Assembly (NCBI GenBank): GCA_000747625.2
Contig: JQDQ01000001.1
Coordinates: 1 to 53,605, forward strand
Direction: 5' to 3'
DNA from: Smithella sp. SCADC
Lineage (GTDB): Bacteria; Desulfobacterota; Syntrophia; Syntrophales; Smithellaceae
DNA: 53,605 bases
Shown here in pieces: positions 28,302 to 52,448 of the stretch. The translations under genes and the position numbers were made by a program. Position 1 is the first letter of the stretch. Every line of letters starts with the position of its first letter. The notes under the pieces are model-generated. The model was not told the origin of the DNA. It did no database searches and was given only the letters and a program-made list of their open reading frames with translations.

Positions 28302-28332
28302 CCAATGGACACTAATTAGTCAAATATGTCCC
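28302..28332 (-). promoter_or_regulatory. candidate activator-binding site (UAS), copy 1
   Basis: Read on the minus strand this 31-base site is GGGACA-N5-GACTAATTA-N4-CCATTGG. The same pattern, same length, occurs at 45665-45695 before the second sigma-54 promoter. Its ends are partly symmetrical (GGGACA and TGTCC). It ends 83 bases before the -24 box of the mutase operon, a fitting place for a bacterial enhancer-binding protein. Confidence 0.7.
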
Positions 28333-28414
28333 ATAAAAAGGACTCCATTTTCAGGCTTTTTAAAAAGAATTAAAAATAGAGTTAAAAATCGGCTTATTCG
28401 GAAGTATGATACTT

Positions 28415-28431
28415 TTGGCATTTTTCTTGCA
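28415..28431 (+). promoter_or_regulatory. sigma-54 promoter of the mutase/Ass operon
   Basis: TTGGCATTTTTCTTGCA has GG and GC at the right spacing (GG at 28417-28418, GC at 28429-28430) and agrees with the TTGGCAC-N5-TTGCW consensus at all but one or two positions. The predicted transcription start is near 28442, 86 bases before the first gene at 28528. Confidence 0.82.
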
Positions 28432-28527
28432 GAAAACTACTTTACTTGGGACATACAGCTACAAATCACATGTAATTGCTGAAATAAGTGTCTCTTTTAA
28501 ATAATTTGTAAATAAGGAGGAGTTCAC

Positions 28528-28935
28528 ATGGGCCAGGATTCAAAGATCAGAGTTCTCGTAGGTAAGCCCGGGTTGGACGGTCATGAGCGTGGAGCGCATG
28601 TTGTAGCCTATGGACTCAGGGATGAAGGTTTTGAGGTCATTTACACGGGTCTTCGTCAGACTCCGGAACAAATCGTTTCCGCAGCCGTACAAGAAGATGT
28701 TGATGTAATTGGCCTTTCTATCCTTTCAGGAGCTCATCTATCATTAACTAAAAAAGTTATGTCAGGCCTCAAAGCCAAAGGTGCAAACGACGTTTTGGTA
28801 ACTGTGGGAGGTATCATTCCTGAAGAAGACAAAAAAACTCTGGAAGAGATGGGTGTGGCAGGCGTTTTCACTTCAGGTTCTAAAATTAAAGATATTGCGG
28901 CATTCATCCGTACAAAGCTCGGGAAGGATGCCTAA
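28528..28935 (+). CDS. B12-binding small subunit of a methylmalonyl-CoA-type mutase
   Basis: This 135-residue protein is a free-standing cobalamin-binding domain. It has the base-off/His-on motif DGHERG (D-x-H-x2-G, the His being the lower cobalt ligand), the IGLSILSGAHLSL segment and the TVGGIIPEED loop. It acts with the catalytic subunit encoded 20 bases downstream. Separate subunits occur in archaeal methylmalonyl-CoA mutases, isobutyryl-CoA mutase and 2-hydroxyisobutyryl-CoA mutase. As first gene of the sigma-54 operon that includes AssA, it likely serves rearrangement of the alkylsuccinyl-CoA. Confidence 0.9.
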   Translation: MGQDSKIRVLVGKPGLDGHERGAHVVAYGLRDEGFEVIYTGLRQTPEQIVSAAVQEDVDVIGLSILSGAHLSLTKKVMSGLKAKGANDVLVTVGGIIPEEDKKTLEEMGVAGVFTSGSKIKDIAAFIRTKLGKDA

Positions 28936-28955
28936 CCACTAGTTAAGGATGAGAC

Positions 28956-30704
28956 ATGAAGAAGAATAGTAAAAAAGAAATTAAAGAGGCTTTAAAGAAA
29001 TGGGAAGACGATGACCTCAAACCGCGTGTAAAAAAATTTAATTTAGATAAGAGCCCTACGAGTTTCTATACACCTCTTTCTTCGGATAGTTCGCATTTTC
29101 TGGAAAAGGTCGGATTCCCCGGTCAGTTTCCTTACACTGCAGGAAATGTACCCTTTGAATTCTGGAGAGCATATGCAGAGAAGAGTGCAAAGCTCAATTT
29201 CCGGCCGGAGTGGGGAGCGGGACGTGTAGGAAAATACGGCGGATTTGGAACCCCTGCCGATTATCGTGATTATCTCTTAAGGATGCAGTCCATGGGACGC
29301 AAGGGTGGTCCCAACATCGCCTTTGATTTGGTGACCCAGTGCGGCTATGATTCGGATAGTCACTTTGCCGAGGGAGAAGTAGGCCGGGTGGGGGTTGCCG
29401 TAGATTCCATGAGGGATTTTGAAATTATCTATGAGGCATATACCGGCGATCTGGATATTGATAAAGTGCCGTCCAACTTCACCATCAATGCACCGGCGGC
29501 GGTTTTAATAGCAATGTATGCCTGTCTGGCCAAGAGGCGAGGCATTCCGCTGGAAAAGTTGACAGGGACGCCCCAGAACGACATTCTTAAAGAATTCATT
29601 GCCCGTGGAACATATATTTTCCCGCCAAAGCAGTCTATGAGGCTGTTCCGCGATACGTGTGTATTTTGTTGCAAACATATGCCTGAGCTCAACATCAATT
29701 CCATAGGCGGCTACCATATGAGAGAAGCCGGAGCCACCCGCGTTCAGGATTTGGCTTTTTCGATGGCGAACGGCATTGCGTATGTTAAGGCCGGAATTGA
29801 AGGCGGGCTTGAAGTAGATGAATTTGTGCCAGCCTTTACTTTCAATGCATTCGGCGGCAGCATGGAAGTCTACAATGAAATTGCCTTCCAGAGGGCTGCC
29901 CGCAGAGTTTGGGCCCATATCTTAAGAGATCGTTTCCATGCCAAGAATCCTAAGAGCATGCAGATTCGTCAAGCAATCTCCGTGCATATAGGATGTTCCA
30001 GCACCACGTTACAGAGGCCGCTCAACAATCTCGCCCGTGCCGTTATGGGTGGAATGGGTGCCGGAATGTCTGGGGCTATTCCCGGTACATTTCCGCCCTT
30101 TGACGAACCGCTTGGCCTCGGCCACTCTCAGGAGGCAACTCAGCTCCAGATGGATGCATCAAGAATATTGATCTATGAAGCGAAGGTAGCCGACGTATGC
30201 GATCCCTGGGCCGGATCTTACTTCATGGAATCACTGACGGATGAGATCGAGAAAGATGCACTGGCCGAGTTGGAGAAGATTGAAAAAATGGGCGGTGCGG
30301 TTGCCGCTATTGAAAATGGATATATGCCGAGGGCCGTAGCCAGGAGTGCTTATGAGCGCCAGAAAAAGATAGAAAGTCAGGAAGAACTGGTGGTAGGCGT
30401 TAATTGTTTCACCGGCGAGAATGAAATTGATGTGTCTATCAATCGCTGTGTTGAAGCAACCTACGATATTGAACTCATGAAGACGGCAGAAGAACGCCAG
30501 AAGGCAAATCTTGCCCGCTTAAAGCGAGAACGCAATGGTACGGCTGTTGTAAGTTCTCTTAGAAGCTTGAAAGTTCAGGCTGCAGATAAAGATAAGAATC
30601 TTATGCCTATAATATGCGAGTGTGTTGAAAACGATGCAACTCTTCAGGAAATTTGTGATGTGCTGCGCGAAGTTTTCGGTGAAGCACAGTCTATGAAGCT
30701 TTAG
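28956..30704 (+). CDS. catalytic large subunit of an acyl-CoA mutase, candidate alkylsuccinyl-CoA mutase
   Basis: This 582-residue protein is the TIM-barrel subunit of the methylmalonyl-CoA mutase family. By alignment from memory with the Propionibacterium enzyme, Tyr94 corresponds to Tyr89, Gln207 to Gln197, Arg217 (IARGTY) to Arg207 and His254 (GGYHMREAG) to His244. The Arg and Tyr that hold a substrate carboxylate are kept, so the substrate should be a malonyl/succinyl-type CoA ester, unlike isobutyryl-CoA mutase. The substrate-channel segment before Tyr94, usually YPTMY-x3-PWTIRQYAGF, is replaced by a longer VPFEFWRAYAEKSAKLNF and RPEWGAG stretch. This suggests a different, perhaps larger, side chain. 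Confidence 0.85.
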   Translation: MKKNSKKEIKEALKKWEDDDLKPRVKKFNLDKSPTSFYTPLSSDSSHFLEKVGFPGQFPYTAGNVPFEFWRAYAEKSAKLNFRPEWGAGRVGKYGGFGTPADYRDYLLRMQSMGRKGGPNIAFDLVTQCGYDSDSHFAEGEVGRVGVAVDSMRDFEIIYEAYTGDLDIDKVPSNFTINAPAAVLIAMYACLAKRRGIPLEKLTGTPQNDILKEFIARGTYIFPPKQSMRLFRDTCVFCCKHMPELNINSIGGYHMREAGATRVQDLAFSMANGIAYVKAGIEGGLEVDEFVPAFTFNAFGGSMEVYNEIAFQRAARRVWAHILRDRFHAKNPKSMQIRQAISVHIGCSSTTLQRPLNNLARAVMGGMGAGMSGAIPGTFPPFDEPLGLGHSQEATQLQMDASRILIYEAKVADVCDPWAGSYFMESLTDEIEKDALAELEKIEKMGGAVAAIENGYMPRAVARSAYERQKKIESQEELVVGVNCFTGENEIDVSINRCVEATYDIELMKTAEERQKANLARLKRERNGTAVVSSLRSLKVQAADKDKNLMPIICECVENDATLQEICDVLREVFGEAQSMKL

Positions 30705-30719
30705 TAAACGGGTAATTAC

Positions 30720-30756
30720 TTTCTGTACTTTTCTACCCCGCGAGGGGGTACAGAAA
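30720..30756 (+). promoter_or_regulatory. intercistronic RNA hairpin between mutase and MeaB genes
   Basis: TTTCTGTAC (30720-30728) pairs with GTACAGAAA (30748-30756), and inside it CCCC-GCGA-GGGG forms a stem closed by a GNRA-type tetraloop. There is no U-tract, so it is more likely an mRNA-stability or processing element than a terminator. Confidence 0.45.
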
Positions 30757-30828
30757 AGAGTGACAGAAGATAATTTCGTTAACGCAGCCAACATGCGTTA
30801 CAAGGTGTAAGAGGAAAGGTTTTTTACG

Positions 30829-31812
30829 GTGGAAGAAAAGCTCGCATTAATGATTGAAGCTGCCAGAAAAAGCAATGAAAGAGCTCTGGCCAAGCTTATT
30901 TCGCATGTTGAAGACCGTAAACCGGGCTGGAAAGATATAATGAAAGCAATCTATGCGGAAACGGGACGGACCTGCGTAATAGGAGTTACAGGTTCTCCGG
31001 GAGCCGGTAAGAGTTCTTTGGTGGGTGAGTTTGCCAAGCAGTTGGGAGATATGGGGTATACCATCGGCATTATTGCGGTGGATCCGTCAAGTCCTTTTTC
31101 CGGTGGAGCAGTACTGGGTGACCGTATCAGGATGCGCGATATAAGTACCTATCAGAATATTTTTATCAGGTCTATGGCCACCCGTGGCATGCTGGGAGGT
31201 TTATGTCAGGCGGCCCGTGATGTTGTAAGAATCATGGATTTTGCCGGCAAAGATATTGTCATCATTGAGACGGTCGGCGTAGGTCAGGATGAAATCGAGG
31301 TTGTAAGTGCATCAGACTATGTAGTGCTCATCACATATCCGGGAGGGGGCGACAGTGTTCAGGCCATCAAGGCAGGAGTTATGGAAATTGCCGATATATT
31401 TGTGGTGAATAAGTGCGATAGGGAGGGTGCTGATATTATAGTATCCGAGATTTCCGCCATGCTTGATCTTTCAACGGAGACGGCTGCAAAAATTCCCCCG
31501 GTCATTAAGACCTCTGCCTTTACCAAGGAAGGCATTGATGAACTAATGGACATACTTTCTGAATTTATTCAGAAGAAAAAGAAAGGTCCGCACTATCAAA
31601 AAGATCATGTTCGTCAAGAGGTCATAAGCATACTGGAGACGGAGATGGTCAGTATCATCAAGGAGCGGATCACGGGCAATGGAAATATGGAGAAAGAGCT
31701 TGAACTCATACTCTCCGGCAAGAGCGATCCTTACAGTATCGCAGACAAGTTAATGAAACGGTTCACTGTCATTAAGAACGTTGAAGAAAAACGAAAAGGA
31801 GACTTTCAATGA
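30829..31812 (+). CDS. meaB: MeaB/ArgK-type G-protein chaperone of the mutase
   Basis: This 327-residue SIMIBI GTPase loads cobalamin into acyl-CoA mutases and protects them from inactivation. Its P-loop is GVTGSPGAGKSSL, the switch region is ETVGVGQDEIEV, and NKCD supplies guanine specificity. It starts with GTG at 30829 behind an AGGAAAGG box. It follows the mutase subunits and overlaps the next gene by ATGA (31809-31812), so the MmgE/PrpD protein is translated in step with it. Confidence 0.92.
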   Translation: MEEKLALMIEAARKSNERALAKLISHVEDRKPGWKDIMKAIYAETGRTCVIGVTGSPGAGKSSLVGEFAKQLGDMGYTIGIIAVDPSSPFSGGAVLGDRIRMRDISTYQNIFIRSMATRGMLGGLCQAARDVVRIMDFAGKDIVIIETVGVGQDEIEVVSASDYVVLITYPGGGDSVQAIKAGVMEIADIFVVNKCDREGADIIVSEISAMLDLSTETAAKIPPVIKTSAFTKEGIDELMDILSEFIQKKKKGPHYQKDHVRQEVISILETEMVSIIKERITGNGNMEKELELILSGKSDPYSIADKLMKRFTVIKNVEEKRKGDFQ

Positions 31813-33152
31813 GTGGAAATGGTGCAGGCTTTACCGCAAAACTCGCCTCGTTCATCGTTAATACTAGAGAACAGGATATTCCCGAATGGGCATATGAGCA
31901 TGCCAAGGTGGCTTTCATGGATTGGCTCGCTGTTACATTCGCGGGCAAAGATGATCCATTGGTAAAAATACTTATCGATTATGTGGAGATGATGGGAGGC
32001 AAAAAACAGGCGACCATCATCGGTTATAATATGAAAAAGGACGTGAGCAGCGCCGCTCTTATCAATGGTGCGGCCTCACATACTCTTGATTATGATGATA
32101 CCCTGGTATCCTTTTTTGGACATCCTTCCGTTACCATTTTCCCGTCGCTGTTGGCGCTTTCCGAGTTGAGGGGCAAGTCCGGGAAAGACTTTCTTACCGC
32201 CTATATCATCGGCCTGCAGGTTGGAAGTACCATTGGCGCTTGTGCAAGTCTTGACCATTACATGGGAGGCTGGCATGCTACTTCAACTTTAGGGCATCTT
32301 GCTTCTGCAGCCGCATGCGCGCGCCTACTGGGCTTATCCGAGAAACAAGCCACGTATGCTTTGGGTATCGGCGGGACACAATCATCTGGTCTCAAACGCG
32401 TCTTCGGGACCATGTGTAAGCCGTTCCATGCAGGTCGCGCCTCCCAGTCCGGACTCTTGGCAGCGCTTCTCGCCGAGAAGGGCTTTACGAGCGCTGAGGA
32501 TATTCTGGAAGGTCCCCAGGGATTTTTCGAGGCCCTAAAGGGCAAGGTGAATGAAGATGTCGTTTCTATGCTGGGTTTGGGCTGGGATGTCCAGAATCTT
32601 CAACAGAAATACCATGCATCCTGCCATGCAACACATTCGCCTCTGGAAGCCGCATTGTCCATTATAAAAAAAGAGAACATCGAACTGGATGCGATCAAGA
32701 GTATTACTGTCCACGCATCCACACTGTCCCTTCAGGCTGCAGGCAAGAACGAGCCGGCCAGCGGCTTGGAAGGAAAATTCAGCATTTCCTACTGCGTGGC
32801 CAACGCTCTGCTGAGAGGAGTGACAGGCATGCAGGCCTTTACTGACGAGAAAGTGAATGATCCTGTAGTGCGGACGATTATGAAAAAGATCAATGTAATT
32901 AATGATCCTAAGATAATGGCCCTGGAATCAATTGTTGAGGTGGAACTCAATAACGGAAAAAGCTTCCAGGCCTTTTCCGACATCCTTCAGCAGACTCCGC
33001 CCCTGGAGGTCAAGAAAGAGCGCGTAGCCAGCAAGTTCCTTGATCTGTGCGAGCCTGTACTGGGGAAGAAGAAAACACTTGCTCTGAAGAAAAAGATCGA
33101 GAGCATGGATACACTTCATAACATGAAAGATATGGCAAAGAGCCTCTTATGA
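31809..33152 (+). CDS. MmgE/PrpD-family protein (2-methylcitrate dehydratase / cis-aconitate decarboxylase fold)
   Basis: This 447-residue protein has the MmgE/PrpD signatures NGAASHTLDYDDT and GHPSVTIFPSLLAL near residues 75-110 and the helical repeat core with GIGGTQSSGLKRVFGTMCKP. In known members the Asp and His in these motifs are catalytic in dehydration of 2-methylcitrate or decarboxylation of cis-aconitate. Its start overlaps the meaB stop, placing it in the mutase unit. It might treat propionyl-CoA-derived tricarboxylates, or decarboxylate or dehydrate a pathway intermediate; the sequence alone does not decide. Confidence 0.8.
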   Translation: MSGNGAGFTAKLASFIVNTREQDIPEWAYEHAKVAFMDWLAVTFAGKDDPLVKILIDYVEMMGGKKQATIIGYNMKKDVSSAALINGAASHTLDYDDTLVSFFGHPSVTIFPSLLALSELRGKSGKDFLTAYIIGLQVGSTIGACASLDHYMGGWHATSTLGHLASAAACARLLGLSEKQATYALGIGGTQSSGLKRVFGTMCKPFHAGRASQSGLLAALLAEKGFTSAEDILEGPQGFFEALKGKVNEDVVSMLGLGWDVQNLQQKYHASCHATHSPLEAALSIIKKENIELDAIKSITVHASTLSLQAAGKNEPASGLEGKFSISYCVANALLRGVTGMQAFTDEKVNDPVVRTIMKKINVINDPKIMALESIVEVELNNGKSFQAFSDILQQTPPLEVKKERVASKFLDLCEPVLGKKKTLALKKKIESMDTLHNMKDMAKSLL

Positions 33153-33215: not shown

Positions 33216-34202
33216 ATGAAAGAGAGCGTGCTGATCACCGATATTGCCAAGTTTTCCGTGAATGACGGTCCCGGATTCAGGACTAATGTGTTCCTTAAGG
33301 GGTGTCCATTAAAGTGTGAATGGTGTCATAATCCCGAAACCATTCCTACTTATCCGGAGGTTTACTGGAAGAAGAGGCTTTGTGTTCAATGCGGCGCCTG
33401 TATGGAAGCTTGCCCCAGGGATGCGATTAATCCTCCCATAGAACCGGAACTTGCCAACATTGAAGGGTCAAATTATCACAAAATAGACCGTGCGAAATGC
33501 GATAATTGCCTGAAGTGTATTGATGCCTGTAAGTATGATGCCCTTGAGTTAGTGGGGAAAACCATGAGTGTATCCGAGGTTATTGACGTGGTAGAACAGG
33601 ATCTGCCCTTTTACAGAACTTCTGGTGGAGGTATGACGTTAAGCGGTGGCGAACCCACCATGCATCCTGCTTTTGCCCTGGAACTGCTTAAAGAAGCAAA
33701 GAGACGCATGATAAATACCTGTCTGGATACCAATGGATATTGCAACTTCAGTATCTTAGAGGAGATTGCCGAGTATACGGATATATTTCTCTTTGACCTG
33801 AAACATCTCGATTCAATAAAGCACTTGGAAAAAACAGGGGTAAAAAACGAACTTATTCTGAAAAATCTGGAGTTGTTGTGTAAGACGGAGTTTGATATAT
33901 GGGTACGTATACCAGTTATACCGGGCTTTAACGACGACATTGATTTTCACACTAAAGCATCCTCTTATCTTGCCTCACTTGCGAGGAATATAAAGCGTGT
34001 AGATTTGATCCCCTTCCACAACTATTGCCAGGATAAGTATTCCTGGCTGGGCAGAAAGTGGTCGTACAGCGAAACAGAAGCCATTAATCCATCATTTCTT
34101 GATATCCATGCGGATTTCTATCGCCAGCAGGGTCTTTTAACAACTGTGGGCGGATCCGGATTTGAAGAGATGGACACGGCAAAAACATTCCGGAATAGTT
34201 AA
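33216..34202 (+). CDS. assD: glycyl-radical-enzyme activase (alkylsuccinate synthase activating enzyme)
   Basis: This 328-residue radical-SAM enzyme creates the glycyl radical on the large subunit encoded downstream. The SAM-cluster motif is Cys30-x3-Cys34-x2-Cys37 (KGCPLKCEWCHNPE). Two ferredoxin-type inserts follow, CVQCGACMEACP and CDNCLKCIDACK, typical of activases for BssA- and AssA-type enzymes and absent from pyruvate formate-lyase activase. SGGGMTLSGGEPTMHP is the family GGE region. Order (activase, gamma, alpha, beta) equals that of bssDCAB. Confidence 0.93.
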   Translation: MKESVLITDIAKFSVNDGPGFRTNVFLKGCPLKCEWCHNPETIPTYPEVYWKKRLCVQCGACMEACPRDAINPPIEPELANIEGSNYHKIDRAKCDNCLKCIDACKYDALELVGKTMSVSEVIDVVEQDLPFYRTSGGGMTLSGGEPTMHPAFALELLKEAKRRMINTCLDTNGYCNFSILEEIAEYTDIFLFDLKHLDSIKHLEKTGVKNELILKNLELLCKTEFDIWVRIPVIPGFNDDIDFHTKASSYLASLARNIKRVDLIPFHNYCQDKYSWLGRKWSYSETEAINPSFLDIHADFYRQQGLLTTVGGSGFEEMDTAKTFRNS

Positions 34203-34325: not shown

Positions 34326-34490
34326 ATGCCGTTATGCAAGGAGTGTAAGAAGTTCTTCCCCATAAAGGAAGATCCGAACAAAGGAGACTGCGTTCAAAGA
34401 GTGGTTGATCCGAGACAGGCTTACTACAAAGCGAAACCGGTAGGAGCAGATATGGATGCAAACTCGTGCTCTTCATTTGAGAAGAAATAA
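34326..34490 (+). CDS. assC: small subunit of the fumarate-adding enzyme (BssC/AssC-like)
   Basis: The 54-residue protein begins MPLCKECKKFFPIKED and has four Cys (C4, C7, and two in the second half, GDCVQR and NSCSSF), the layout of the small BssC-type subunit that binds a [4Fe-4S] cluster. The ATG at 34326 follows AAGGAGGTGA at 34311-34320; the longer frame from 34308 is unlikely. It sits directly before the large subunit, as in bss and ass operons. Confidence 0.85.
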   Translation: MPLCKECKKFFPIKEDPNKGDCVQRVVDPRQAYYKAKPVGADMDANSCSSFEKK

Positions 34491-34505
34491 AACAGAACAT
34501 ATGCT

Positions 34506-37153: not shown

Positions 37154-37522
37154 ATGGCAAGAATGAGCAGAGATAGTTTTTCAAAAGCTACGGGGGTATT
37201 TGGCATGACCGCGGAGAATCTGGAAAAAGAGATCCATGCCGATCAGGTTCCCGAAAAGAACTGTGGGGTATGCAAGCACTTTCTGGAAAACACCTATGCG
37301 AGCGACGGAAGGGGAACCTGTAGCTTGCTCAAAGATGGTTCCGATATCACCAGCGATCCTCCAGTTTTTAATTTGGAGGAAAAAAACGGATATATGCTGA
37401 GAATCCTTACCGATGCCTCCAAGTGTACATATTTTGAAAAAATGGAATTCATCGATCATGACGGCACGGAATGCAGCGATCCCATGTACCGTCGCTCGAT
37501 GAGGCAACTCCAGGATAAGTAA
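37154..37522 (+). CDS. assB: small subunit of the fumarate-adding enzyme (BssB/AssB-like)
   Basis: This 122-residue protein has a four-Cys arrangement in its second half: NCGVCKHF, GTCSLL and KCTYFEK, which matches the BssB-type subunit with a [4Fe-4S] cluster that covers the large subunit and gates its conformational change. It follows assA by about 80 bases, with an AAAGGAG box before the ATG. The position alpha-then-beta is conserved in bss and ass operons. Confidence 0.83.
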   Translation: MARMSRDSFSKATGVFGMTAENLEKEIHADQVPEKNCGVCKHFLENTYASDGRGTCSLLKDGSDITSDPPVFNLEEKNGYMLRILTDASKCTYFEKMEFIDHDGTECSDPMYRRSMRQLQDK

Positions 37523-37560: not shown

Positions 37561-37776
37561 ATGAAATGCGTAGAATGTAATTTCGATGGTCCTATCGATA
37601 AATTCCGTTACCTGTATAATGCCCGGATCGATTCATCGATGACCTTACGGCAGTGTCCCAATTGTCAGGCCTGGCTGGCCGTGGATGAACTGACCGGCGC
37701 TGTTAAACAGAAGGTCGGTTTGGGCGAAGCTCCCTGGGGCAAGTCGGCCGGCATCGAGGGTTTGGCAACAGATTAA
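37561..37776 (+). CDS. small zinc-ribbon protein, possible fourth subunit (MasB-like)
   Basis: This 71-residue protein starts MKCVECNFDGPIDKF and has a second CPNC pair at about residues 39-42, so it is a four-Cys zinc ribbon. The alkane operon mas of strain HxN1 is described as having an extra small subunit beside the three known from bss, and this gene could be its counterpart. It is 38 bases after assB and has an AAAGGAG box. I cannot show homology to MasB from memory, so the symbol is left empty. Confidence 0.7.
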   Translation: MKCVECNFDGPIDKFRYLYNARIDSSMTLRQCPNCQAWLAVDELTGAVKQKVGLGEAPWGKSAGIEGLATD

Positions 37777-37828: not shown

Positions 37829-38167
37829 ATGGATATGACTTGTCATGTTTGCGGCCATACGGCCAGTTATATTGAGTTTGCCTATCTATGCAAGGCGGGG
37901 TGACCGGCTTGCGGAGAGTCGGATCTGCGGCGATGTCCAGCCTGCGGAGCCCAATGCGTTTTCTCGCGTGCCGAGAGCCTGAAAGATGAAGAAGTCCAGA
38001 TGAAAGAGCTTGCTGAAAAATTGGCCGGTATAGTTAAAAGTCCGGATCCGCAGGTCATGGCGGAAGCCAGGAATTTACTTGAACGGTTGTACAAAATGAA
38101 TCAGCGCTGGAATATTCCGTCCCTGCAACAATTTCTAAAGGAACGGCAGCGCGAGTTGTTTATGTAA
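37829..38167 (+). CDS. small Cys-rich protein with in-frame UGA, candidate selenoprotein
   Basis: The gene starts at ATG 37829 behind CCAGGAGG and would be 112 residues if the TGA at 37901-37903 is read as an amino acid (position 25). Coding pattern continues without break to TAA at 38165. The protein has CHVC (5-8), then CKAG-TGA-PACG, so the UGA takes the place of the first Cys of a CxxC pair; a CPACGAQC follows. Just after the UGA the RNA can form a 7-bp stem (UUGCGGA/UCUGCGG) with an 8-base loop that starts with G. The second half is helical and charged. A plain nonsense mutation is the alternative. Family unknown to me. Confidence 0.6.
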
Positions 38168-40982: not shown

Positions 40983-41393
40983 ATGAAGATCAGTGAGACT
41001 GTAAAAAAATGCTTAGAAACAGAAGGCAAGACCAGTATGCTGGCTACTTCGGACAAATCCGGTAAAGTAAATGTGGCTATGTTTGGTTCATTAATGCTTG
41101 TGGATGATTCTTCGGTGCTGGTTATGCTGGGCGACAACCGGTCGTTTAGCAATCTGAAAGAGAACCCCCAGGCAGCATGTATAATTACGCTCCCTGGCAA
41201 GGGCGGTATGGCTACCCAGGGTTGCAGACTTTACATGAAAGTTCGCACCATTCAGGAGGAAGGTGAAAAATTTAAAGAGGTCAAGGAAAAAATCAGAGCC
41301 AAAATCGGTGGTGGCGCCGATATGCTTATGCACTTGGTGATGTTTGACATTGTAGAAGCCCGTCCGATTCTCGACTTGGGACAGGGAATATAA
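40983..41393 (+). CDS. pyridoxamine-5'-phosphate-oxidase-like split-barrel flavoprotein
   Basis: This 136-residue protein is a single split-barrel domain that normally binds FMN. Typical segments are SMLATSDKSGKVNVAMFGSL and MLGDNRSFSNLKENPQAACI. Such proteins act as small oxidoreductases or FMN/F420 binders and are common among anaerobes. AGGAAAGGAG precedes the ATG. It follows the AAA/VWA pair and comes before the crotonase gene at 37 bases. A paralogous fragment lies at the end of the IS91 debris (about 26490-26604). Confidence 0.8.
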   Translation: MKISETVKKCLETEGKTSMLATSDKSGKVNVAMFGSLMLVDDSSVLVMLGDNRSFSNLKENPQAACIITLPGKGGMATQGCRLYMKVRTIQEEGEKFKEVKEKIRAKIGGGADMLMHLVMFDIVEARPILDLGQGI

Positions 41394-42267: not shown

Positions 42268-43836
42268 ATGTCGCTGGAATGGAACATTGGATATATACCT
42301 TATAAAAGGGCATTAATTTCACCCGAGAAAACAGCAATCATCTTTGAAGATGTCCCTGTCACCTACCGGCAACTAAACGAAGGGATCAACAAAGCAGCAC
42401 ACATGCTGGAGAAAAAGGGCATCAAGAAGGGTGACCGGCTTGGAATAGTGATGCTTAACTGTATTGAGTTTATTGAGATATATTTTGCATGTGCTAAACT
42501 GGGAGCTATCCTGGTGCCGCTAAACTGTCGCCTTGTAGGTCCGGAGCTCGAATACCAACTCAATGACAGTGGTGTCCGGTTGCTTGCCTTCCATGACACT
42601 TTTTTGGGAAGCATTGATCTGATAAGGGGTAAGCTCAAGGTCGAGCAGGACAAGTTCATATTTTTGCCAAGCGGAAATAAACTTCCTCCAGGCTTCCAGC
42701 CCCCCTCATGTCCTGACTGGGCGGATGATTACCACAAGCTCGTTGATGGACAGCCTGTCTCGGAACCTTATATGGAAAATCCGGTGGAATCGGATGACCC
42801 CCTTGCCATCATCTATACATCCGGGACTACCGGCAATCCCAAAGGTGCTATTGTATCGCATCTGCAGACCTACTTCAAAAACTTCCAGGTGGGAATATAT
42901 ACTGATAGTCAGCCAGGTGACGTGATGATCGCGCAGATGCCTCTGTTCCACTCCGGCGGTTTGTTTATCGTTGTGACTCCGTCTCTGTGTAGTGGCGTTA
43001 TAATTGTAATGCGAAAGGGATTCGACCCGAATGAATTTGCCGAGGACATCCAGAGGTACAAAGGTACCATCATATTTGCACTCACTACCATGTGGCGCCT
43101 TATCCTGGACACCGGCAAACTAGACCAAATCGATGTCCGCTCCGTGCGTAGCGTATTGGGCGGAGGAGAGCGTACTCCACCAAATCTTTTTGAGGAGCTT
43201 GCCAAGCGTAATCTCCACATGCAGCAGGGATTTGGCCAGACGGAAAACTCCGCAATGATGCTGCTGCCAAAAGAGGATATCAAAAGAAAGATGGGATCCA
43301 TAGGCAAACCCGGATTTTTTACAGATATCTGGATAAGTGATGTGAATGGTAAACGGTTGCCGCCGGGTGAAATAGGCGAGATATGTGCGAAAGGGCCAAC
43401 AGTGATGAGCGGATACTGGAGCAAGCCTGAAGAAACCGCTGATACTATAGTGAAAGGAGTTCTCCATACCGGTGATCTTGGTTACACTGATGAGGAAGGA
43501 TACTTCTATATTGTAGACAGAGCAAAAGACATGTACCGCAGTGGCGGCGAGAATGTATACCCGGCGGAGATAGAGAAAGTATTGATGACACATCCCCAAA
43601 TATCAATGGCGGCAATTATTGGAGTGCCTGATAATAAATGGGGCGAAACAGGGAAAGCGTTCATTGTTCCGTTTCCTAATGAGAGCATCACTGAAAAGGA
43701 GATAGTCGAATTCTTGAAGGACAAGGTTGCCAAGTACAAGTACCCGACAAAATTCAAGTTCATGAAAGAGTTGCCACTCACTGGAACAATGAAGGTGAAA
43801 AAATCAGAGCTTAAAGCATTATATTCGGAGGAATAA
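42268..43836 (+). CDS. assK: AMP-forming acyl-CoA ligase (AssK-like)
   Basis: This 522-residue ANL-family ligase has the P-loop IIYTSGTTGNPKGA, QGFGQTENS, the HTGDLGYTDEEGYFYIVDRA core hinge region with YRSGGENVYPAEIE, and a late Lys in TGTMKVKKSEL that forms the adenylate. It should make the CoA ester of the fumarate-addition product, alkylsuccinate. It follows the crotonase by 25 bases and has a strong GGAGGAAAG box. A ligase called AssK is known from ass clusters; the symbol is by context and family. Other long or branched acids could be substrates. Confidence 0.85.
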   Translation: MSLEWNIGYIPYKRALISPEKTAIIFEDVPVTYRQLNEGINKAAHMLEKKGIKKGDRLGIVMLNCIEFIEIYFACAKLGAILVPLNCRLVGPELEYQLNDSGVRLLAFHDTFLGSIDLIRGKLKVEQDKFIFLPSGNKLPPGFQPPSCPDWADDYHKLVDGQPVSEPYMENPVESDDPLAIIYTSGTTGNPKGAIVSHLQTYFKNFQVGIYTDSQPGDVMIAQMPLFHSGGLFIVVTPSLCSGVIIVMRKGFDPNEFAEDIQRYKGTIIFALTTMWRLILDTGKLDQIDVRSVRSVLGGGERTPPNLFEELAKRNLHMQQGFGQTENSAMMLLPKEDIKRKMGSIGKPGFFTDIWISDVNGKRLPPGEIGEICAKGPTVMSGYWSKPEETADTIVKGVLHTGDLGYTDEEGYFYIVDRAKDMYRSGGENVYPAEIEKVLMTHPQISMAAIIGVPDNKWGETGKAFIVPFPNESITEKEIVEFLKDKVAKYKYPTKFKFMKELPLTGTMKVKKSELKALYSEE

Positions 43837-43840
43837 TAAC

Positions 43841-44803
43841 ATGGGGAATGGTTGGAAAAACCGTATCACGGATATACTCGGATGTGACTATCCGATCATA
43901 TTGGGCCCCATGAGGCTCATAACCCTGGGCAGTATGGCTGCCTGCATATCGAATGCCGGCGGGTTTGGTGTGATAGGTGCTTCGGGTCTCTCCAGGGAGA
44001 AACTCATCGAAGAAATTAAACTGGCTCAATCCCTGACTAATAAGCCTGTAGGGGTGAACATCCCTGTGTACAGGCCTAATGCCATGGAAGCCCTTGAAGT
44101 ATCCATTGACATGGGAGTGAAGGCAATTTACACCTCTGCCGGAGATCCTGCCAAGTTAATAGATAAGATCAAGTATGCCGGCCTGAAGGTGATCCATAAA
44201 GTGTCCAACCTGGGAATGGCACGCAAAGCGGAGGCGGCGGGAGTTGATGCTGTCGTGGCCATGGGGTATGAAGCAGGGGGACATATCGGACGCGAGGGCA
44301 TCACGACCTTTTGTCTTATACCCGTGCTTGCCCAAGCATTGAATATCCCTGTTATAGCATCGGGTGGCATCGGTGATGCAAACGGCCTGCTTGCGGCACT
44401 TGCTCTTGGTGCGGAAGGTGTGGAGATAGGGACCAGATTTGTGGCCACCAATGAATGTCCTGTGCCAACTTTTTTTAAAGAGTCCCTCTGTGCTGCCGAG
44501 CTGACTTCAACTGTTGTTCTCGGTAAGGAGGCTATGCCGATGCGGGTACTTAAAAATACAATTGTAGAGCAAACTGCTGGAACTGGCGAGGCAAAAACTG
44601 ACCAGGTTCTGGCACAGCAGGAAAAGGCAGATGCTCTCTATGTAGGCGAAGGCGGCAACAAGCATACATCTGTAATGCCGTGCGGGCAGGTCGCAGGACT
44701 TATCAATGATGTAAGTTCTGTAAGCGATGTGCTTTCCCAAATGATAAATGGTACAAAGTCCATTTTGGATATACTCAATAGAATGACTTCAGGAGGAAGA
44801 TAA
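43841..44803 (+). CDS. FMN-dependent nitronate monooxygenase / enoyl reductase-like protein
   Basis: This 320-residue TIM-barrel flavoprotein belongs to the NMO/FabK-like family. Visible features are a start with GCDYPIILGPMRLITLGSMA, the GYEAGGHIGREG loop with His, and the phosphate-binding ASGGIGDANGLLAALALGAE and GVEIGTRFVA. Though named for nitronate oxidation, members near acyl-CoA pathways of anaerobes probably reduce enoyl or oxidise acyl thioesters. It starts 5 bases after the ligase stop, and its last base overlaps the next start. Confidence 0.8.
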   Translation: MGNGWKNRITDILGCDYPIILGPMRLITLGSMAACISNAGGFGVIGASGLSREKLIEEIKLAQSLTNKPVGVNIPVYRPNAMEALEVSIDMGVKAIYTSAGDPAKLIDKIKYAGLKVIHKVSNLGMARKAEAAGVDAVVAMGYEAGGHIGREGITTFCLIPVLAQALNIPVIASGGIGDANGLLAALALGAEGVEIGTRFVATNECPVPTFFKESLCAAELTSTVVLGKEAMPMRVLKNTIVEQTAGTGEAKTDQVLAQQEKADALYVGEGGNKHTSVMPCGQVAGLINDVSSVSDVLSQMINGTKSILDILNRMTSGGR

Positions 44804-45594
44804 TGAGTTGGGATAATGTAATTCTTAATGTGGCGGATAATATAGCTTTCATCACTCTGAACAGACCCGAAAGAATGAATGCTTTTGGCGGCAAGATGCG
44901 CCAGGAAATCGTCGAGGTTCTGGAAGGTGTTGCTGTTGATAAAGATGTTCGGGTTGTGGTGATTACCGGGGCAGGTAAGGCATTTTGCACCGGTGGAGAC
45001 GTCGGAGAATTTGGGGCAGGCACTACCAAAGCCCTGGCGCCTGCGGTATCCAATGAGAGGCATGCGATGTGCAAAGCGGTGCTTGCAATCAATAGGATGG
45101 AAAAGCCGGTTATTGCCGCAGTGAATGGTATTGCCGCGGGAGGCGGCTGCAATCTGGCCCTTTCCTGCGATATCAGATTAGCGAGCGAGAAGGCCAGGTT
45201 CAGCCAGATTTTTACCAAGAGAGGGGTCCATCCGGACTGGGGAGGTGTCTATTTTCTGCCGCGTCTTGTAGGTTATTCCAAAGCTGCCGAACTTATTTTT
45301 TCCGCAGAGATTATTGACTCTGCGGAAGCATTTCGCATCGGTTTAGTCAACAAAGTGTATCCACATGAAGAATTTGAAAATTCAGTAACACAATTTGCTC
45401 TGCGCATCGCCAAGAATGCTCCCATACCCATTGCCTTTGCCAAACGCGGGCTTCAGAATTTTCAGCAGTGGGACCTGGCACAGGCCCTCGATTATGAATC
45501 ATACGTATTGGAAGTGTGCATGAAAAGCAATGATATTGCTGAAGGATTCGGTGCCTTTCTGGAGAAAAGGGAGCCAAACTTTAAGGGTAATTGA
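44803..45594 (+). CDS. enoyl-CoA hydratase/isomerase
   Basis: This 263-residue crotonase has oxyanion-hole segments AFCTGGDVGEF and AAVNGIAAGGGCNLAL and the FTKRGVHPDWGG loop. The second catalytic acid is likely Asp145 in HPDWGG; the first hydratase Glu is Gln/Ile, as in PaaG-type isomerases and related hydratases. It thus differs from the crotonase at 41431 and probably acts in beta-oxidation of the decarboxylated acyl-CoA. It is the last gene of the first operon. Confidence 0.85.
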   Translation: MSWDNVILNVADNIAFITLNRPERMNAFGGKMRQEIVEVLEGVAVDKDVRVVVITGAGKAFCTGGDVGEFGAGTTKALAPAVSNERHAMCKAVLAINRMEKPVIAAVNGIAAGGGCNLALSCDIRLASEKARFSQIFTKRGVHPDWGGVYFLPRLVGYSKAAELIFSAEIIDSAEAFRIGLVNKVYPHEEFENSVTQFALRIAKNAPIPIAFAKRGLQNFQQWDLAQALDYESYVLEVCMKSNDIAEGFGAFLEKREPNFKGN

Positions 45595-45877: not shown

Positions 45878-46804
45878 TTGATGAGAAAAAAGGTATCGTT
45901 TCTTGGCGCAGGAAATGTTGGCGCTACTGCCGCCATGTATCTTGCCGAGTTGGACATAGCGGATATAGTGCTCGTTGATGTACTGGAAGATATGACCAAA
46001 GGCAAAGCGTTGGACATGGCGGAGGCTGCGCCAGTCTTCAGGTTTAACTGCAGATTTACAAATGATTTCAATGATATAAAAGGCTCGGATATTATTGTAA
46101 TCACTGCCGGTATTCCCAGAAAACCGGGCATGAGCCGGGATGACCTCCTCTTTACCAATCAGGATATTATCGGTTCATTGGTTAAAAAGGTTGCTCCTTT
46201 GGCGCCGGATGCAATCTTGATTATAGTGACTAATCCGCTGGATGCCATGTGCCATGTAGCTCATGAAGTAAGTGGGTTTCCCAAGAACAGGATCGTAGGC
46301 ATGGCCGGCGTTCTGGATTCCTCCAGGTTTGCAGCGTTTATTGCCATGGAATTGGACGTTTCGATTGAAAATATTCAGGCTTTTGTACTTGGCGGTCATG
46401 GAGATACTATGGTGCCGCTTCCCCGTTTTACCAGTGTGGCAGGCATTCCCGTGACAAGATTTATCAATAACGAAAGGCTTAATGCCATAATAGAAAGAAC
46501 TCGTAACGGTGGCGCGGAAATTACAAATCTACTTAAGACAAGCGCCTACTACGCTCCGGCCAGTGCGATCAGGGAGATGGCCGAGGCCATACTTAAAGAT
46601 AAAAAGAAAATTATGCCCTGTTCCGCTTATCTTGAAGGTGAATACGGCATCCGGAACATGTTTGTTGGTGTTCCGGTAAAGCTTGGTTCTAATGGAGTAG
46701 AAGAAATCATTGAGGTAGAACTTACCGAAAGTGAAAAAGAAGAATTAAAGAAATCTGTTGATAGTGTGAAAGGTCTTGTGGCCGCCATGAAAGGTCGTTC
46801 ATAA
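45878..46804 (+). CDS. mdh: malate dehydrogenase (LDH-like type)
   Basis: This 308-residue NAD-dependent enzyme interconverts malate and oxaloacetate. The Rossmann loop is LGAGNVGATAAMYLAE; the specificity loop AGIPRKPGMSRDDLL has Arg, which marks malate over lactate; the catalytic His is in GGHGDTMVPL. The length is typical. A start at the second codon (45881) is also possible. It opens the second sigma-54 operon, before the transcarboxylase genes, and would join oxaloacetate to the malate/fumarate pool. Confidence 0.93.
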   Translation: MMRKKVSFLGAGNVGATAAMYLAELDIADIVLVDVLEDMTKGKALDMAEAAPVFRFNCRFTNDFNDIKGSDIIVITAGIPRKPGMSRDDLLFTNQDIIGSLVKKVAPLAPDAILIIVTNPLDAMCHVAHEVSGFPKNRIVGMAGVLDSSRFAAFIAMELDVSIENIQAFVLGGHGDTMVPLPRFTSVAGIPVTRFINNERLNAIIERTRNGGAEITNLLKTSAYYAPASAIREMAEAILKDKKKIMPCSAYLEGEYGIRNMFVGVPVKLGSNGVEEIIEVELTESEKEELKKSVDSVKGLVAAMKGRS

Positions 46805-48930: not shown

Positions 48931-48964
48931 CAATATCTGAAAGATTGGAAAGGGGTATAAGTTA

Positions 48965-50530
48965 ATGGACGAAAAATATAAGCAAAGGATAGACACTCTA
49001 AGACAAGTCAAACAAATCTCGCTCTTAGGCGGCGGTCAGGATAAACTCGACAAAATACGTGAGAGAGGAAAACTTACTGCCCGGGAGCGTATCGATTATC
49101 TGCTTGATGAAGGAAGCTTTGTGGAACATAATCTCATCATCGGTTACAAAGAAGGAATGCCTTGTGATGGCCTTATTGCAGGGTACGGCAAAATACATGG
49201 CCGGCCGGTATGTGTCTATTCCCAGGATCCGACGGTATCCGGAGGCTCCATCGGTCCGATGCACGGATTCAAGATGTACCGGGCTATTGAGTGGGCTTTG
49301 GACATGGGTGTGCCACTCATCGGGCTCCATGAGTCCCCCGGTGCGCGCGTACCTGATGCAACGAGCAGGTGTGTCTTAGGGGAGGTTATGGAAAAAAACG
49401 GCGGTTCGGTTTTTTACGTTAATACCCAGGGATCCGGCATTATTCCTCAGATTTCAGCGATTATGGGAAGCTGTGCAGGGATAGCGGTATATTCACCGGC
49501 GCTGACAGATTTTATCTTCATGGTGGACAAAAAGAGCGAGATGTTTATTACCGGTCCCAAAGTGGTGCAGGCCGTTACCGGAGAAAAACTTTCCAAACAG
49601 GACTTGGGTGGAGCGGAAATCCATTGTAAAATATCCGGTGTTGCGGACAACAGGTATAAGGATGAGCAAGAACTTTTGGATGCTATCCGGGAGCTCATGA
49701 GCTTTCTGCCGCAGAATGCCGATGAACAGCCGCCCATGATCGATCTTGGAGATGATCCTGGTCGTTTGACCGAGGAACTCACCGATATCGTGCCGTCGGA
49801 TGCAACCAAAGCTTATGACGTTCGCAAAGCAATTAAGTGTATTGTGGATGCCGGAGAATTCTTAGAGATAAAGCCGGAGTTCGCCCCGGAAATGGTTGTG
49901 GGATTTGCGCGGCTTGATTGCCGTGTGGTGGGGATTGTGGCTAACCAGCCGAGTTTCCTGGCAGGGAGCCTTACTGTCGACAGCTCGGACAAACAAGCGC
50001 GTTTTATGCGTTTTTGCGACTGTTTCAATATCCCTATTATACTCCTTGTCGATACCTCTGCATATATGCCGGGAAAAGATCAGGAACAGCTGGGCATAAT
50101 CCGCCACGGTGCCAAAGTGCTCTATGCGCTCTGCGAATCTAGCGTGCCAAGGATAGGTGTTGTTTTGCGGAAGGCCTATGGAGGAGGCAACCTTGGTATG
50201 GGAGTGATACCGGCCCAGCGAGGTACGGACATGATGTTTTACTGGCCAATTACCGAATTAGGTGTCATGGGAGCAAAGGCAACAGTAGAGCTTTTTATGG
50301 GTGAAGTCATCCGAAGTTCTCCAAATCCTGATGAAACACGTGATATGTTCATCAAGGAGCTTGAGGAACGCACTTGTAATCCCATGCGAGAAGCAGCCTA
50401 TAACCCCTATGTCAATGATGTCATTGAACCCAGGGATACGAGAAAAGTTTTGATTCAGTCGCTGGAATTTTTGTCAACCAAGAAAAAACCTCCACGGTAT
50501 GCAAAACGTCACGGGAATATTCCTCTGTGA
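48965..50530 (+). CDS. acyl-CoA carboxyltransferase (propionyl/methylmalonyl-CoA type, 12S-like)
   Basis: This 521-residue crotonase-type carboxyltransferase (PccB/MmdA group) has the ERIDYLLDEGSFVEHN start, a GGSIGPMHGFKMYRAIEWAL segment, FMVDKKSEMFITGPKVVQAV and the C-terminal domain with IPIILLVDTSAYMPGKDQEQ. It moves a carboxyl group between biotin and the alpha-carbon of an acyl-CoA. Paired with the 5S/biotin protein before it (35-base gap), it forms a possible acyl-malonyl-CoA:pyruvate transcarboxylase. Confidence 0.88.
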   Translation: MDEKYKQRIDTLRQVKQISLLGGGQDKLDKIRERGKLTARERIDYLLDEGSFVEHNLIIGYKEGMPCDGLIAGYGKIHGRPVCVYSQDPTVSGGSIGPMHGFKMYRAIEWALDMGVPLIGLHESPGARVPDATSRCVLGEVMEKNGGSVFYVNTQGSGIIPQISAIMGSCAGIAVYSPALTDFIFMVDKKSEMFITGPKVVQAVTGEKLSKQDLGGAEIHCKISGVADNRYKDEQELLDAIRELMSFLPQNADEQPPMIDLGDDPGRLTEELTDIVPSDATKAYDVRKAIKCIVDAGEFLEIKPEFAPEMVVGFARLDCRVVGIVANQPSFLAGSLTVDSSDKQARFMRFCDCFNIPIILLVDTSAYMPGKDQEQLGIIRHGAKVLYALCESSVPRIGVVLRKAYGGGNLGMGVIPAQRGTDMMFYWPITELGVMGAKATVELFMGEVIRSSPNPDETRDMFIKELEERTCNPMREAAYNPYVNDVIEPRDTRKVLIQSLEFLSTKKKPPRYAKRHGNIPL

Positions 50531-50588
50531 TGAAAATTTGAGAATCAGTAGCAGGAAGTAGCAATGCAGATCTTAGCGGGGTGGTCCG

Positions 50589-52448
50589 GTGAGTAACTTG
50601 ATTTTGGATGAAAAGGACCAGAACTTTGTGTTGTTTGAGATGCTGGAGATGGATAAGCTTCTGGGATTGTATAAATACTCCGACTTTTCCACTGATATGC
50701 TTAAGATGATTCTCTCAAAGGCGCAGAAGTTTGCCTTAGAAGAAATATTCCCCACCCTTGTGGAGGGTGACAAAGATGGATGCAGACTGGAAAAAGGTAA
50801 TGTCCACGTACCAAAGTGTTTTCATCGTCCGTACATGCTCTTTAATAAAGCTGGATGGAATTGCATGACACTTTCCAAACAGTGCGGAGGCCAGGGCCTT
50901 CCCATGATCATAAGGACGGCTGCTCATGAATGGTTCATGCATAATTTCGCATTCTGCTCTTACCCTGTGCTTGTCGAAGGTGCAGTACATCTCATTCATG
51001 CTCTCGGCTCAAAGCAGCAAAAGGACAAATATCTTTCCAAAATGTTAACCGGACAATGTGGGGCAAGCATATGCCTTACCGAGCAAGGCGCTGGATCCGA
51101 TATGGGGAACATCACCGTAAAGGCAGTAAGGCAGCCTGATGGAACCTTTAAACTTCAGGGCACGAAGATTTTTATTACTGCCGGCGATCAGGATCTCACT
51201 GAAAATATTATTCATATTGTACTTGCCAGGATTGAAGGCGATCCTGCCCGTACAAGAGGCCTCTCTATTTTCATCGTACCCAAGTACTTGGTAAATAAAG
51301 ACGGTTCATTGGGAAGACGTAATGACTATGAGATCGCAGGAATCGAAAAAAAAATGGGGATACACGGAAGCGCCACCTGCCTAATCAACTACGGTAACAA
51401 TAACAACTGTTACGCCGAGTTATTAGGTAATGAGCGAGAGGGTATGAAGGCCTTGTTTCAGATGATAAACAAGGCCAGGATTGTCGTGGGGCTTCAGGGT
51501 CTCTCCAGCGCGTCCATTGCCTACCTTCACGCACTGAAGCATACCAAAGAAAGGTTCCAGGGCTCGTCACTACTCGACTTGAAGAATCCAAGTGCGCCGC
51601 GTGTTCCAATTATACAGCATACTGATGTAAGGCGTATGCTCCTGTGGATGAAGTCCAACGTGGAAAGCATGAGAGTACTGATATACTACACTGCAATCTG
51701 TAACGACATGGCCTCTGGCATCAGTGACCCCACAGAAAGATGGTCGGGAATAGTGGAAGTGCTTACACCCATCGTAAAGGCTTATTGTACAGATATAGGT
51801 TTCAGGGTAACCGAAACAGCCATGCAATGTTACGGAGGTTATGGCTATTGTAATGAATATCCGATTGAACAGTTCCTGCGAGACGAAAAAGTTGCCTCCC
51901 TTTACGGTAGTAATGGGCTACAGGCATTAGATCTCGCCACGAGAAAAATGGTTATGAAAGAAGGCGCATATTTCATGAGCCTCCTTGGTGAGATGAATAC
52001 AACTGTGGCCAAATGCGGAGTCATCGCCGTGATCAAAGATCTTGCGGAAGATGTTCAGTCCGCCATAAATACACTGACGGATGTCATAATGTTTTTTTCC
52101 TCTTGCAGTAGAGAGGGTAAATTCTATATACTTTTAGAAAATGCTCATCCTTTTCTCATGATGATGGGCAAGATAGTGTGTTCCTGGCTGCTGCTCTGCG
52201 AAGCAGCCATTGCACAAGAAACACTGTTGGAGCTATGCAGTATCAAGGGAGTAACATGCTCAGATCCATCGGATCTTTCCCGCTTTATTAAGAAGAACAA
52301 AGATGCTGCATTTTACGATGGTAAGATAAAAACAGCGAAATATTTCATCAAGAACGTACTTCCCGAGATCAATGGCACGGTAAAGGCCATCAAGAGTGAA
52401 GATGTTTCTATAATGGAAATAGCAGATGAGAGTTTCTCTTCTTGCTAA
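50589..52448 (+). CDS. long acyl-CoA dehydrogenase with unusual catalytic region
   Basis: This 619-residue protein is an acyl-CoA dehydrogenase of the long (about 600 residue) kind with an added C-terminal helical domain. FAD/substrate motifs are CLTEQGAGSDMGNITVKAV, KIFITAGDQDLTENI and CYGGYGYCNEYPIEQFLRDE. The segment that usually carries the catalytic Glu, YEGTNGIQALDL, reads LYGSNGLQALDL here (near residue 439), so the Glu is missing. The frame starts with GTG at 50589 and a weak ribosome-binding site. It is last in the second operon and probably oxidises a pathway acyl-CoA. Confidence 0.82.
   Translation: MSNLILDEKDQNFVLFEMLEMDKLLGLYKYSDFSTDMLKMILSKAQKFALEEIFPTLVEGDKDGCRLEKGNVHVPKCFHRPYMLFNKAGWNCMTLSKQCGGQGLPMIIRTAAHEWFMHNFAFCSYPVLVEGAVHLIHALGSKQQKDKYLSKMLTGQCGASICLTEQGAGSDMGNITVKAVRQPDGTFKLQGTKIFITAGDQDLTENIIHIVLARIEGDPARTRGLSIFIVPKYLVNKDGSLGRRNDYEIAGIEKKMGIHGSATCLINYGNNNNCYAELLGNEREGMKALFQMINKARIVVGLQGLSSASIAYLHALKHTKERFQGSSLLDLKNPSAPRVPIIQHTDVRRMLLWMKSNVESMRVLIYYTAICNDMASGISDPTERWSGIVEVLTPIVKAYCTDIGFRVTETAMQCYGGYGYCNEYPIEQFLRDEKVASLYGSNGLQALDLATRKMVMKEGAYFMSLLGEMNTTVAKCGVIAVIKDLAEDVQSAINTLTDVIMFFSSCSREGKFYILLENAHPFLMMMGKIVCSWLLLCEAAIAQETLLELCSIKGVTCSDPSDLSRFIKKNKDAAFYDGKIKTAKYFIKNVLPEINGTVKAIKSEDVSIMEIADESFSSC

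Follow-up and report, generated by a model that had tools for sequence, protein, structure and literature searches.

A predicted sigma-54-controlled island for alkane degradation by fumarate addition in a Smithella-type bacterium, with a candidate epimerase and a proposed pyruvate-linked carboxyl transfer

Smithella-type bacteria are thought to drive methane formation from oil alkanes while gaining very little energy. Genes for alkylsuccinate synthase (ass) are already known from Smithella genomes (PMC4208337). In Desulfoglaeba alkanexedens ALDC, compared here by its published description rather than its genome, clusters 1 and 2 hold ass genes, mutase subunits, an LAO transport system that is probably MeaB, and an MmgE/PrpD protein, and cluster 2 shares a putative carboxyl transferase with the locus described below; a malate dehydrogenase (MDH) or 5S-biotin gene goes unmentioned in that paper (PMC7180275). 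The locus in question lies on a stretch of 53,605 nucleotides from Smithella sp. SCADC (contig JQDQ01000001.1; hereafter the window), which is contig C1 of a 3.19-Mb assembly of 244 contigs with 94.7% completeness and 8.2% contamination and carries 21 genes in one orientation (+) between 28528 and 52448. We consider it somewhat probable, on the gene content, gene order, homologies, conserved residues, and promoter motifs given below, that these genes make up a sigma-54-controlled island of a Smithella-type bacterium for alkane degradation by fumarate addition, including a proposed epimerase and a pyruvate-linked carboxyl transfer. The island is a real and well-preserved member of a known island type; new here are three proposals, namely that its PrpD protein may be an epimerase, that the carboxyl group may be passed to pyruvate with the participation of MDH, and that the genes may be under sigma-54 control.

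To compare gene order, the 21 island proteins were placed on 85 fetched loci; a named collection comprised 57 loci, 33 of which have at least 6.5 kb before AssA (in the labels used here, L denotes fetched loci, G the genomes compared, and C contigs of the window's own genome). This revealed an order that is found again and again in Desulfobacterota, with local changes: B12 subunit, mutase, MeaB, PrpD, activase, AssA, small subunits, MoxR, VWA, crotonase, and then ligase. Parts of it also occur in metagenome-assembled genomes (MAGs) bearing the label Dehalococcoidia (L033, where the shared order starts at the activase) or SAR324 (L059, which lacks MoxR and VWA). Activase, PrpD, and mutase all precede AssA in 22 of the 57 loci, Desulfatibacillum alkenivorans AK-01 included. 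An earlier annotation of the window (the original prediction) had called such grouping unusual, a claim that these results refute: because the order recurs in many loci and a similar Desulfoglaeba cluster is in print (PMC7180275), the grouping is not unusual. The closest named relatives at the island locus are Smithella MAGs, and within the genus the distribution is patchy, with AssA at 69% identity or more in 5 of 16 same-genus genomes, in one of the five only as fragments.

The window AssA is 63% identical to MasD of strain HxN1 (Protein Data Bank (PDB) entry 9o8u), and the small proteins MasC, MasB, and MasE match chains C, B, and D of that entry, respectively; an activase is present as well. 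In a quick maximum-likelihood tree of 64 rows with SH-aLRT support only, built without any rows of L008, L043 (full-length), L045, and L047 or rows below 90% coverage, and taking in neither NmsA, IbsA, nor HbsA, the window protein fell within the AssA/MasD clade alongside HxN1 MasD and both AK-01 AssA proteins, with BssA, a long branch, outside; AssA separated from other glycyl radical enzymes too. This placement bears out the original assignment to the fumarate-adding type. The catalytic Cys was found in 57 of 57 aligned rows and the radical Gly in 56, the remaining row having a gap. Judged by sequence, the island AssA with MasB, MasC, and MasE is an intact (1-methylalkyl)succinate synthase.

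Other glycyl radical genes and AssA copies were also surveyed. A second glycyl radical enzyme of the window's genome, on C113, was considered as alkane-linked and found unsupported (35% identity), and partial glycyl-radical matches occur on C49 and C50. Among plasmids, 134 records had a match to AssA, none at 60% identity or more. Another AssA copy of Smithella SDB_sulfate1, on a short contig, has a different mutase pair in front of it (L016:1-1265), at 48% and 53% identity. In the MAG CSMAG_2994, AssA-type genes are spread over at least eight contigs (L048, L052, L054-L057, L067, L069), and neither PrpD nor the ass-type mutase was found within their fetched flanks. Many copies from G007 and SDB_sulfate1 (L008, L074-L076, L015-L017) are found at the end of a contig or on a very short one, as though assemblies were broken by near-identical AssA copies; the window is among the few contigs that run through.

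Residues of the mutase large subunit were next compared with those of methylmalonyl-CoA mutase. Tyr89 and Arg207 of the latter (P. shermanii numbering), which we take to bind the carboxylate, are kept in all 21 ass-linked relatives, while 2-hydroxyisobutyryl-CoA mutase has Ile and Gln at these positions, and Gly stands in place of Ala90 in 21 of 21. Such a combination would suit a substrate with a free carboxyl group and a bulky group, as in (1-methylalkyl)succinyl-CoA. The mutase has a constant companion in the PrpD protein: among the 33 loci with sufficient upstream sequence, PrpD occurs in 22, the mutase in 21, and both in 21, and a mutase at 55% identity or more never stands without PrpD (0/33), so that PrpD accompanies it in 21 of 21. 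PrpD without mutase was seen once, on a contig that begins at PrpD (L043). Neither gene is carried by 11 of the 33 loci, two of which, L046 (the second AssA of AK-01) and L058, have an activase. In profile searches with PrpD, iminodisuccinate epimerase ranked first (3e-73), followed by Bacillus IRG1 (1.2e-66), mouse cis-aconitate decarboxylase (1.6e-44), and methylcitrate dehydratase (6.7e-15), and the active-site residues D94, T98, H105, H156, K204, and K267 are invariant in 19 of 19 sequences. An epimerase has been postulated from the stereochemistry of HxN1, according to the available text of PMC4561516, and the MmgE/PrpD protein is a candidate for this enzyme, hitherto not identified in Smithella.

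For the carboxyl step, trees of 17 12S and 23 5S proteins were made from fetched loci only, leaving out the frame-broken 12S of L111. The island 12S fell in an ass-linked clade (support 96/98), with one other AK-01 12S and the 12S on C200 of the window's genome outside. In the 5S-biotin fusion the RDGHQS, KDM, and HSH motifs, presumably supplying the metal ligands and the Lys, are intact, as is the biotin motif AMKM. MDH, 5S-biotin, and 12S follow one another in the window, and the contiguous triplet recurs in Smithella SDB_sulfate1, Smithella M82, and the MAG G062. In G061 the ass locus includes MDH, and 5S-12S lie on a different contig, which starts inside the 5S gene; G072 has 5S-12S on a separate contig; G071 has MDH and a frame-broken 12S, the 5S protein being absent; in sulfate reducers, 12S stands without 5S. 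Searches of the window's own genome (94.7% complete) gave no match to a biotin carboxylase domain, for which 13 of 14 control genomes were positive, and found no decarboxylase beta subunit. Because the 5S motifs are intact and neither of these components was found, our best reading is that the carboxyl group of alkylmalonyl-CoA would be moved to pyruvate. The same genome holds a second set: on C200 (L124), a biotin-less 5S gene lies among FabD-, FabG-, and FabF-like genes, as judged by eye, with a 12S about 11 kb off, and C137 (L123) encodes a free biotin carrier. Since no biotin carboxylase was found, malonyl-CoA might arise there by transcarboxylation.

The window contains two strict matches to the sigma-54 consensus (P1 and P2), against 0.19 expected. 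Of 22 loci, 17 have a strict match upstream of the B12 subunit gene, the window being one of these; in the other five, which include AK-01, the motif at this place deviates by one or two mismatches. Among upstream stretches counted with overlapping fetches included, the strict motif was absent from all 335 that belong to 16 other cluster genes and present in 1 of 47 for AssC, 5 of 15 for MDH (three genomes), and 2 of 10 for the 5S gene (one genome). It lies 96 nt upstream of MDH in both Smithella SDB_sulfate1 and M82, and in G072 it is 109 nt from the detached 5S gene; G061, G062, G071, and G072 lack a strict motif directly before MDH. The mutase operon is linked by one predicted promoter type to MDH or to the 5S-12S pair in some genomes. 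P1 is flanked in Smithella by an inverted box (ATGTCCCA/TTGGGACAT); with one mismatch allowed, such boxes number 24 in the whole window against 15.0 expected, a mild excess. No gene for a sigma-54 activator is constantly near ass among the fetched loci, five of which contain a GAFTGA-type motif, none of them with a B12 subunit gene and one (L106) on the ass contig of G072. Smithella Yes70-30 carries a strict motif (L079:15360) ahead of an acyl-CoA dehydrogenase 40% identical to that of the island, next to a ligase (56%) that may replace the one missing from its ass locus. Literature searches pairing alkylsuccinate with PrpD returned only PMC7180275, and no paper was found linking alkylsuccinate with sigma54, or alkylsuccinate synthase or Smithella alkane/fumarate with a trans-/carboxytransferase; most subscription journals were outside these searches, and any of these proposals may already have been published.

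The occurrence of MDH was compared with that of dsrA in 23 genomes. Eight have MDH at the ass locus, among them G077 by collinearity only, on a 3.6-kb contig with MDH, 5S, and part of 12S; seven (G063, G065, G066, G067, G068, G069, G073) have an ass-type 12S near the ligase or ECH2 and no MDH in the fetched sequence; and eight are unclassed (G060, G064, G070, G074, G078, G079, G080, G081). A dsrA over the cut-off was found in 12 of the 23, in 0 of the 8 that have MDH at this locus versus 6 of the 7 that have 12S and no MDH there (Fisher p = 0.0014, for genomes related by descent), and G068, the seventh of the MDH-less group, and G077 gave weak matches only. The dsrA-negative genomes would belong to bacteria living as syntrophs, and the pattern may merely follow descent.

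As the original prediction had said of nearly each step, the island holds candidate enzymes: for alkane activation, for ligation to CoA, for rearrangement, for removal of the carboxyl group, and for the start of beta-oxidation. In the pathway that we propose, the activase and MasBCDE would join an n-alkane to fumarate and the AMP-forming ligase would form the CoA ester, while the MmgE/PrpD protein would epimerise the alkylsuccinate at C2, either as the free acid or bound to CoA. Together with MeaB, the B12 mutase would then yield alkylmalonyl-CoA, whose free carboxyl group the 12S protein would load onto the biotin of the 5S-biotin fusion and the 5S domain would pass to pyruvate, giving a branched acyl-CoA and oxaloacetate. 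MDH would convert oxaloacetate to malate en route to fumarate, or oxaloacetate could instead be turned into aspartate and, by aspartase, into fumarate; beta-oxidation would be begun by the acyl-CoA dehydrogenase and the crotonases. More tentatively, and with more doubt than for the island itself, we suggest that in syntrophic alkane degraders a hitherto undescribed alkylmalonyl-CoA:pyruvate carboxytransferase, made up of the ass-clade 12S and the 5S-biotin fusion and coupled to MDH, keeps the carboxyl group in the C4 pool, that the PrpD protein is the missing alkylsuccinate epimerase, and that sigma-54 drives the regulon across Desulfobacterota. If so, the carboxyl group of spent fumarate would be returned to the C4 pool rather than lost, which would save the ATP otherwise used to make oxaloacetate, such a saving being established transcarboxylase biochemistry. 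The shared promoter would offer a simple handle for finding the rest of the regulon.

These proposals have to be weighed against other explanations of the same data. That the window is a chimeric contig, as the rise in GC to 0.54 around AssA and the 8.2% contamination of the bin might suggest, is highly improbable. The original prediction had named a join of this kind between 28 and 52 kb as the finding that would overturn it, and both halves and the left junction proved to be collinear with Smithella-type contigs: 28.5-34.6 kb with L068, L070 (a Syntrophaceae bacterium), L071, and L074 (a same-genus genome), 37.2-52.4 kb with L114, and from MasE onward also with L115. The TPR gene on the left is in the same place in L018, L068, L070, L071, and L074, and in another MAG (L020 and L110, the same contig) the run from B12 subunit to 12S lies on one contig, without ECH1. 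A different fate of the carboxyl group is suggested by published naming, the available texts assigning decarboxylation in Smithella M82 to a carboxyl transferase (PMC5606693) or naming propionyl-CoA carboxylase for the step (PMC6776118, PMC10811727). The island would then serve the same alkane pathway with loss of the carboxyl group, 12S acting as an alkylmalonyl-CoA decarboxylase or like a propionyl-CoA carboxylase in reverse, and MDH and 5S would serve general anaplerosis; indeed the island MDH is the sole MDH place found in 6 of 7 other genomes with the same arrangement and may be a housekeeping enzyme. We regard this as unlikely given the lack of matches to a biotin carboxylase or decarboxylase beta subunit in the window's genome, the intact 5S motifs, and the promoter type that the Smithella MDH and the G072 5S gene share with the mutase operon.

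Transcarboxylation with propionyl-CoA, proposed by Wilkes 2002 as cited in the available text of PMC4561516, would lead through methylmalonyl-CoA, succinyl-CoA, and succinate to fumarate, the 5S domain merely bringing biotin. The 12S that stands without 5S in sulfate reducers would accord with such a route, but the intact 5S motifs and the MDH adjoining 5S and 12S make it distinctly improbable here. It is doubtful, though less so than carboxyl loss, that the PrpD-family protein is a decarboxylase or dehydratase of the cis-aconitate decarboxylase or methylcitrate type and no epimerase; the first rank of iminodisuccinate epimerase in the profile search, the strict pairing with the mutase, and the epimerase postulated for HxN1 (available text of PMC4561516) all argue for an epimerase. 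Several observations nevertheless weigh against the sigma-54-controlled island with epimerase and pyruvate-linked transfer that we favour. The PrpD fold ties with that of a decarboxylase, although by sequence an epimerase is the closest relative of solved structure; 5 of the 34 strict sigma-54 matches in all fetched DNA stand before no mapped gene; and Smithella Yes70-30 (G060) is dsrA-negative yet lacks MDH and the 5S-biotin fusion altogether, a case that argues against a strict dsrA-MDH rule. The weak point is the malate-to-fumarate step: the MDH and transcarboxylase-like pair that the original prediction had linked to fumarate recycling are present, but no clear fumarase was found, and the recycling loop is not closed. 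A class I fumarase domain was not found in the window's genome (94.7% complete), nor a class II fumarase over cut-off in 25 genomes, and the best class II match in the window's genome is aspartase-like and lies beside a gene resembling hydF by eye. Either the malate-to-fumarate enzyme was missed or fumarate arises through aspartate.

Table 1. Features of the island and its left flank in the window.
Feature	Position	Strand	Basis
TPR-repeat protein, divergent neighbour	27360..28037	-	Pfam TPR; same place in 5/5 Smithella-type loci reaching it
Left copy of inverted box ATGTCCCA, upstream of P1	28326..28334	-	invariant in 6/6 aligned loci
Predicted sigma-54 promoter P1 (TGGCAY-N5-TTGCW)	28416..28431	+	strict match, 112 nt before B12 subunit
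Right copy of inverted box TTGGGACAT	28446..28454	+	exact in 4/6 aligned loci
B12-binding small subunit, acyl-CoA mutase	28528..28935	+	TIGR00640 167.6 bits, cut-off 57.45
Mutase large subunit, candidate (1-methylalkyl)succinyl-CoA mutase	28956..30704	+	TIGR00641 462.8 bits, cut-off 303.8
MeaB GTPase	30829..31812	+	TIGR00750 306.3, cut-off 240.75
MmgE/PrpD protein, candidate C2 epimerase of alkylsuccinate or its CoA ester	31809..33152	+	Pfam MmgE_PrpD_N and C
Glycyl-radical activase (radical SAM)	33216..34202	+	TIGR02494 338.9, cut-off 174.35
MasC/AssC small subunit	34326..34490	+	9o8u_C 3.5e-13
AssA/MasD catalytic subunit, 835 aa	34568..37075	+	63% to MasD; Cys473, Gly810
MasB-type small subunit	37154..37522	+	9o8u_B 1e-24
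MasE-type small protein	37561..37776	+	9o8u_D 1.4e-22
Conserved 55-aa protein	38000..38167	+	homologues at same place in many ass loci
MoxR-type AAA ATPase	38262..39143	+	Pfam AAA_5
VWA-domain protein, start codon uncertain	39091..40845	+	Pfam VWA 23.8 bits, exactly at cut-off 23.8
PNPOx-like flavin protein	40983..41393	+	Pfam PF01243
Enoyl-CoA hydratase/isomerase 1 (ECH1)	41431..42243	+	Pfam ECH_1
AMP-forming acyl-CoA ligase	42268..43836	+	Pfam AMP-binding
NMO/FabK-like flavoprotein	43841..44803	+	Pfam NMO; FabK model below cut-off
Enoyl-CoA hydratase/isomerase 2 (ECH2)	44803..45594	+	Pfam ECH_1
Predicted sigma-54 promoter P2	45776..45791	+	strict match, 102 nt before MDH
Malate dehydrogenase (MDH)	45878..46804	+	TIGR01763 443.7, cut-off 351.85
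5S-type carboxyltransferase fused to biotin carrier, 670 aa	46918..48930	+	PRK09282 738.4, cut-off 402; PycB, OadA, 5S, 1.3S structures match
12S-type carboxyltransferase, ass-linked clade	48965..50530	+	Pfam Carboxyl_trans
Acyl-CoA dehydrogenase, 619 aa	50589..52448	+	Pfam Acyl-CoA_dh domains

The genes named earlier are all present on the + strand, with family-level functions as originally described (Table 1), while the start given at 28302 is intergenic, the first gene beginning at 28528. To these genes we add MmgE/PrpD, the MoxR ATPase and VWA pair (38262-40845), the 55-aa protein, the PNPOx-like protein, and the NMO/FabK-like flavoprotein. Upstream of the island, the minus strand at 17884-25636 carries thiolase/ChsH2-like pairs, an acyl-CoA dehydrogenase, a butyrate-kinase-like gene, and two PTB-like genes; homologues of the kinase and PTB-like genes also lie near AssA in L080. 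Transposase genes or remnants are found near both contig ends, at 505-1664 (IS4-type) and at 52786-53605, where a weak IS21-like match is accompanied by another transposase recognized by eye.

Among known systems, the transcarboxylase of Propionibacterium has the same functional domains (12S, 5S, and 1.3S), 5S catalytic motifs, and biotin Lys, and differs in that 5S and 1.3S are fused in one chain in the window; the window 12S falls in the ass-linked clade of a tree made without the Propionibacterium 12S. HxN1 (PDB 9o8u) likewise has MasB, MasC, MasD, and MasE, its catalytic subunit being 63% identical. The comparison with AK-01 that the original prediction had suggested gave nearly the same order from B12 subunit to 12S: its ass locus (L032, L112) runs B12 subunit, mutase, MeaB, PrpD, activase, MasC, AssA, MasE, and 55-aa protein, and continues as in the window with MoxR, VWA, PNPOx, ECH1, ligase, NMO, ECH2, and 12S. 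AK-01 differs in having a MasB-like gene before AssA, a P1-type promoter motif with two mismatches, and neither MDH nor the 5S-biotin gene at this locus, a 5S-biotin homologue (64-66%) lying elsewhere beside a different 12S. In Candidatus Smithella cisternae M82 (L068, L115), the island is split over contigs at assA, but both halves are collinear with the window and the proteins are 80-100% identical (78% for the AssA fragment). The available text of PMC5606693 assigns decarboxylation in M82 to carboxyl transferase 65_11 and names 65_10 as pyruvate carboxylase, which we take to be the 12S and 5S genes of the window, respectively.

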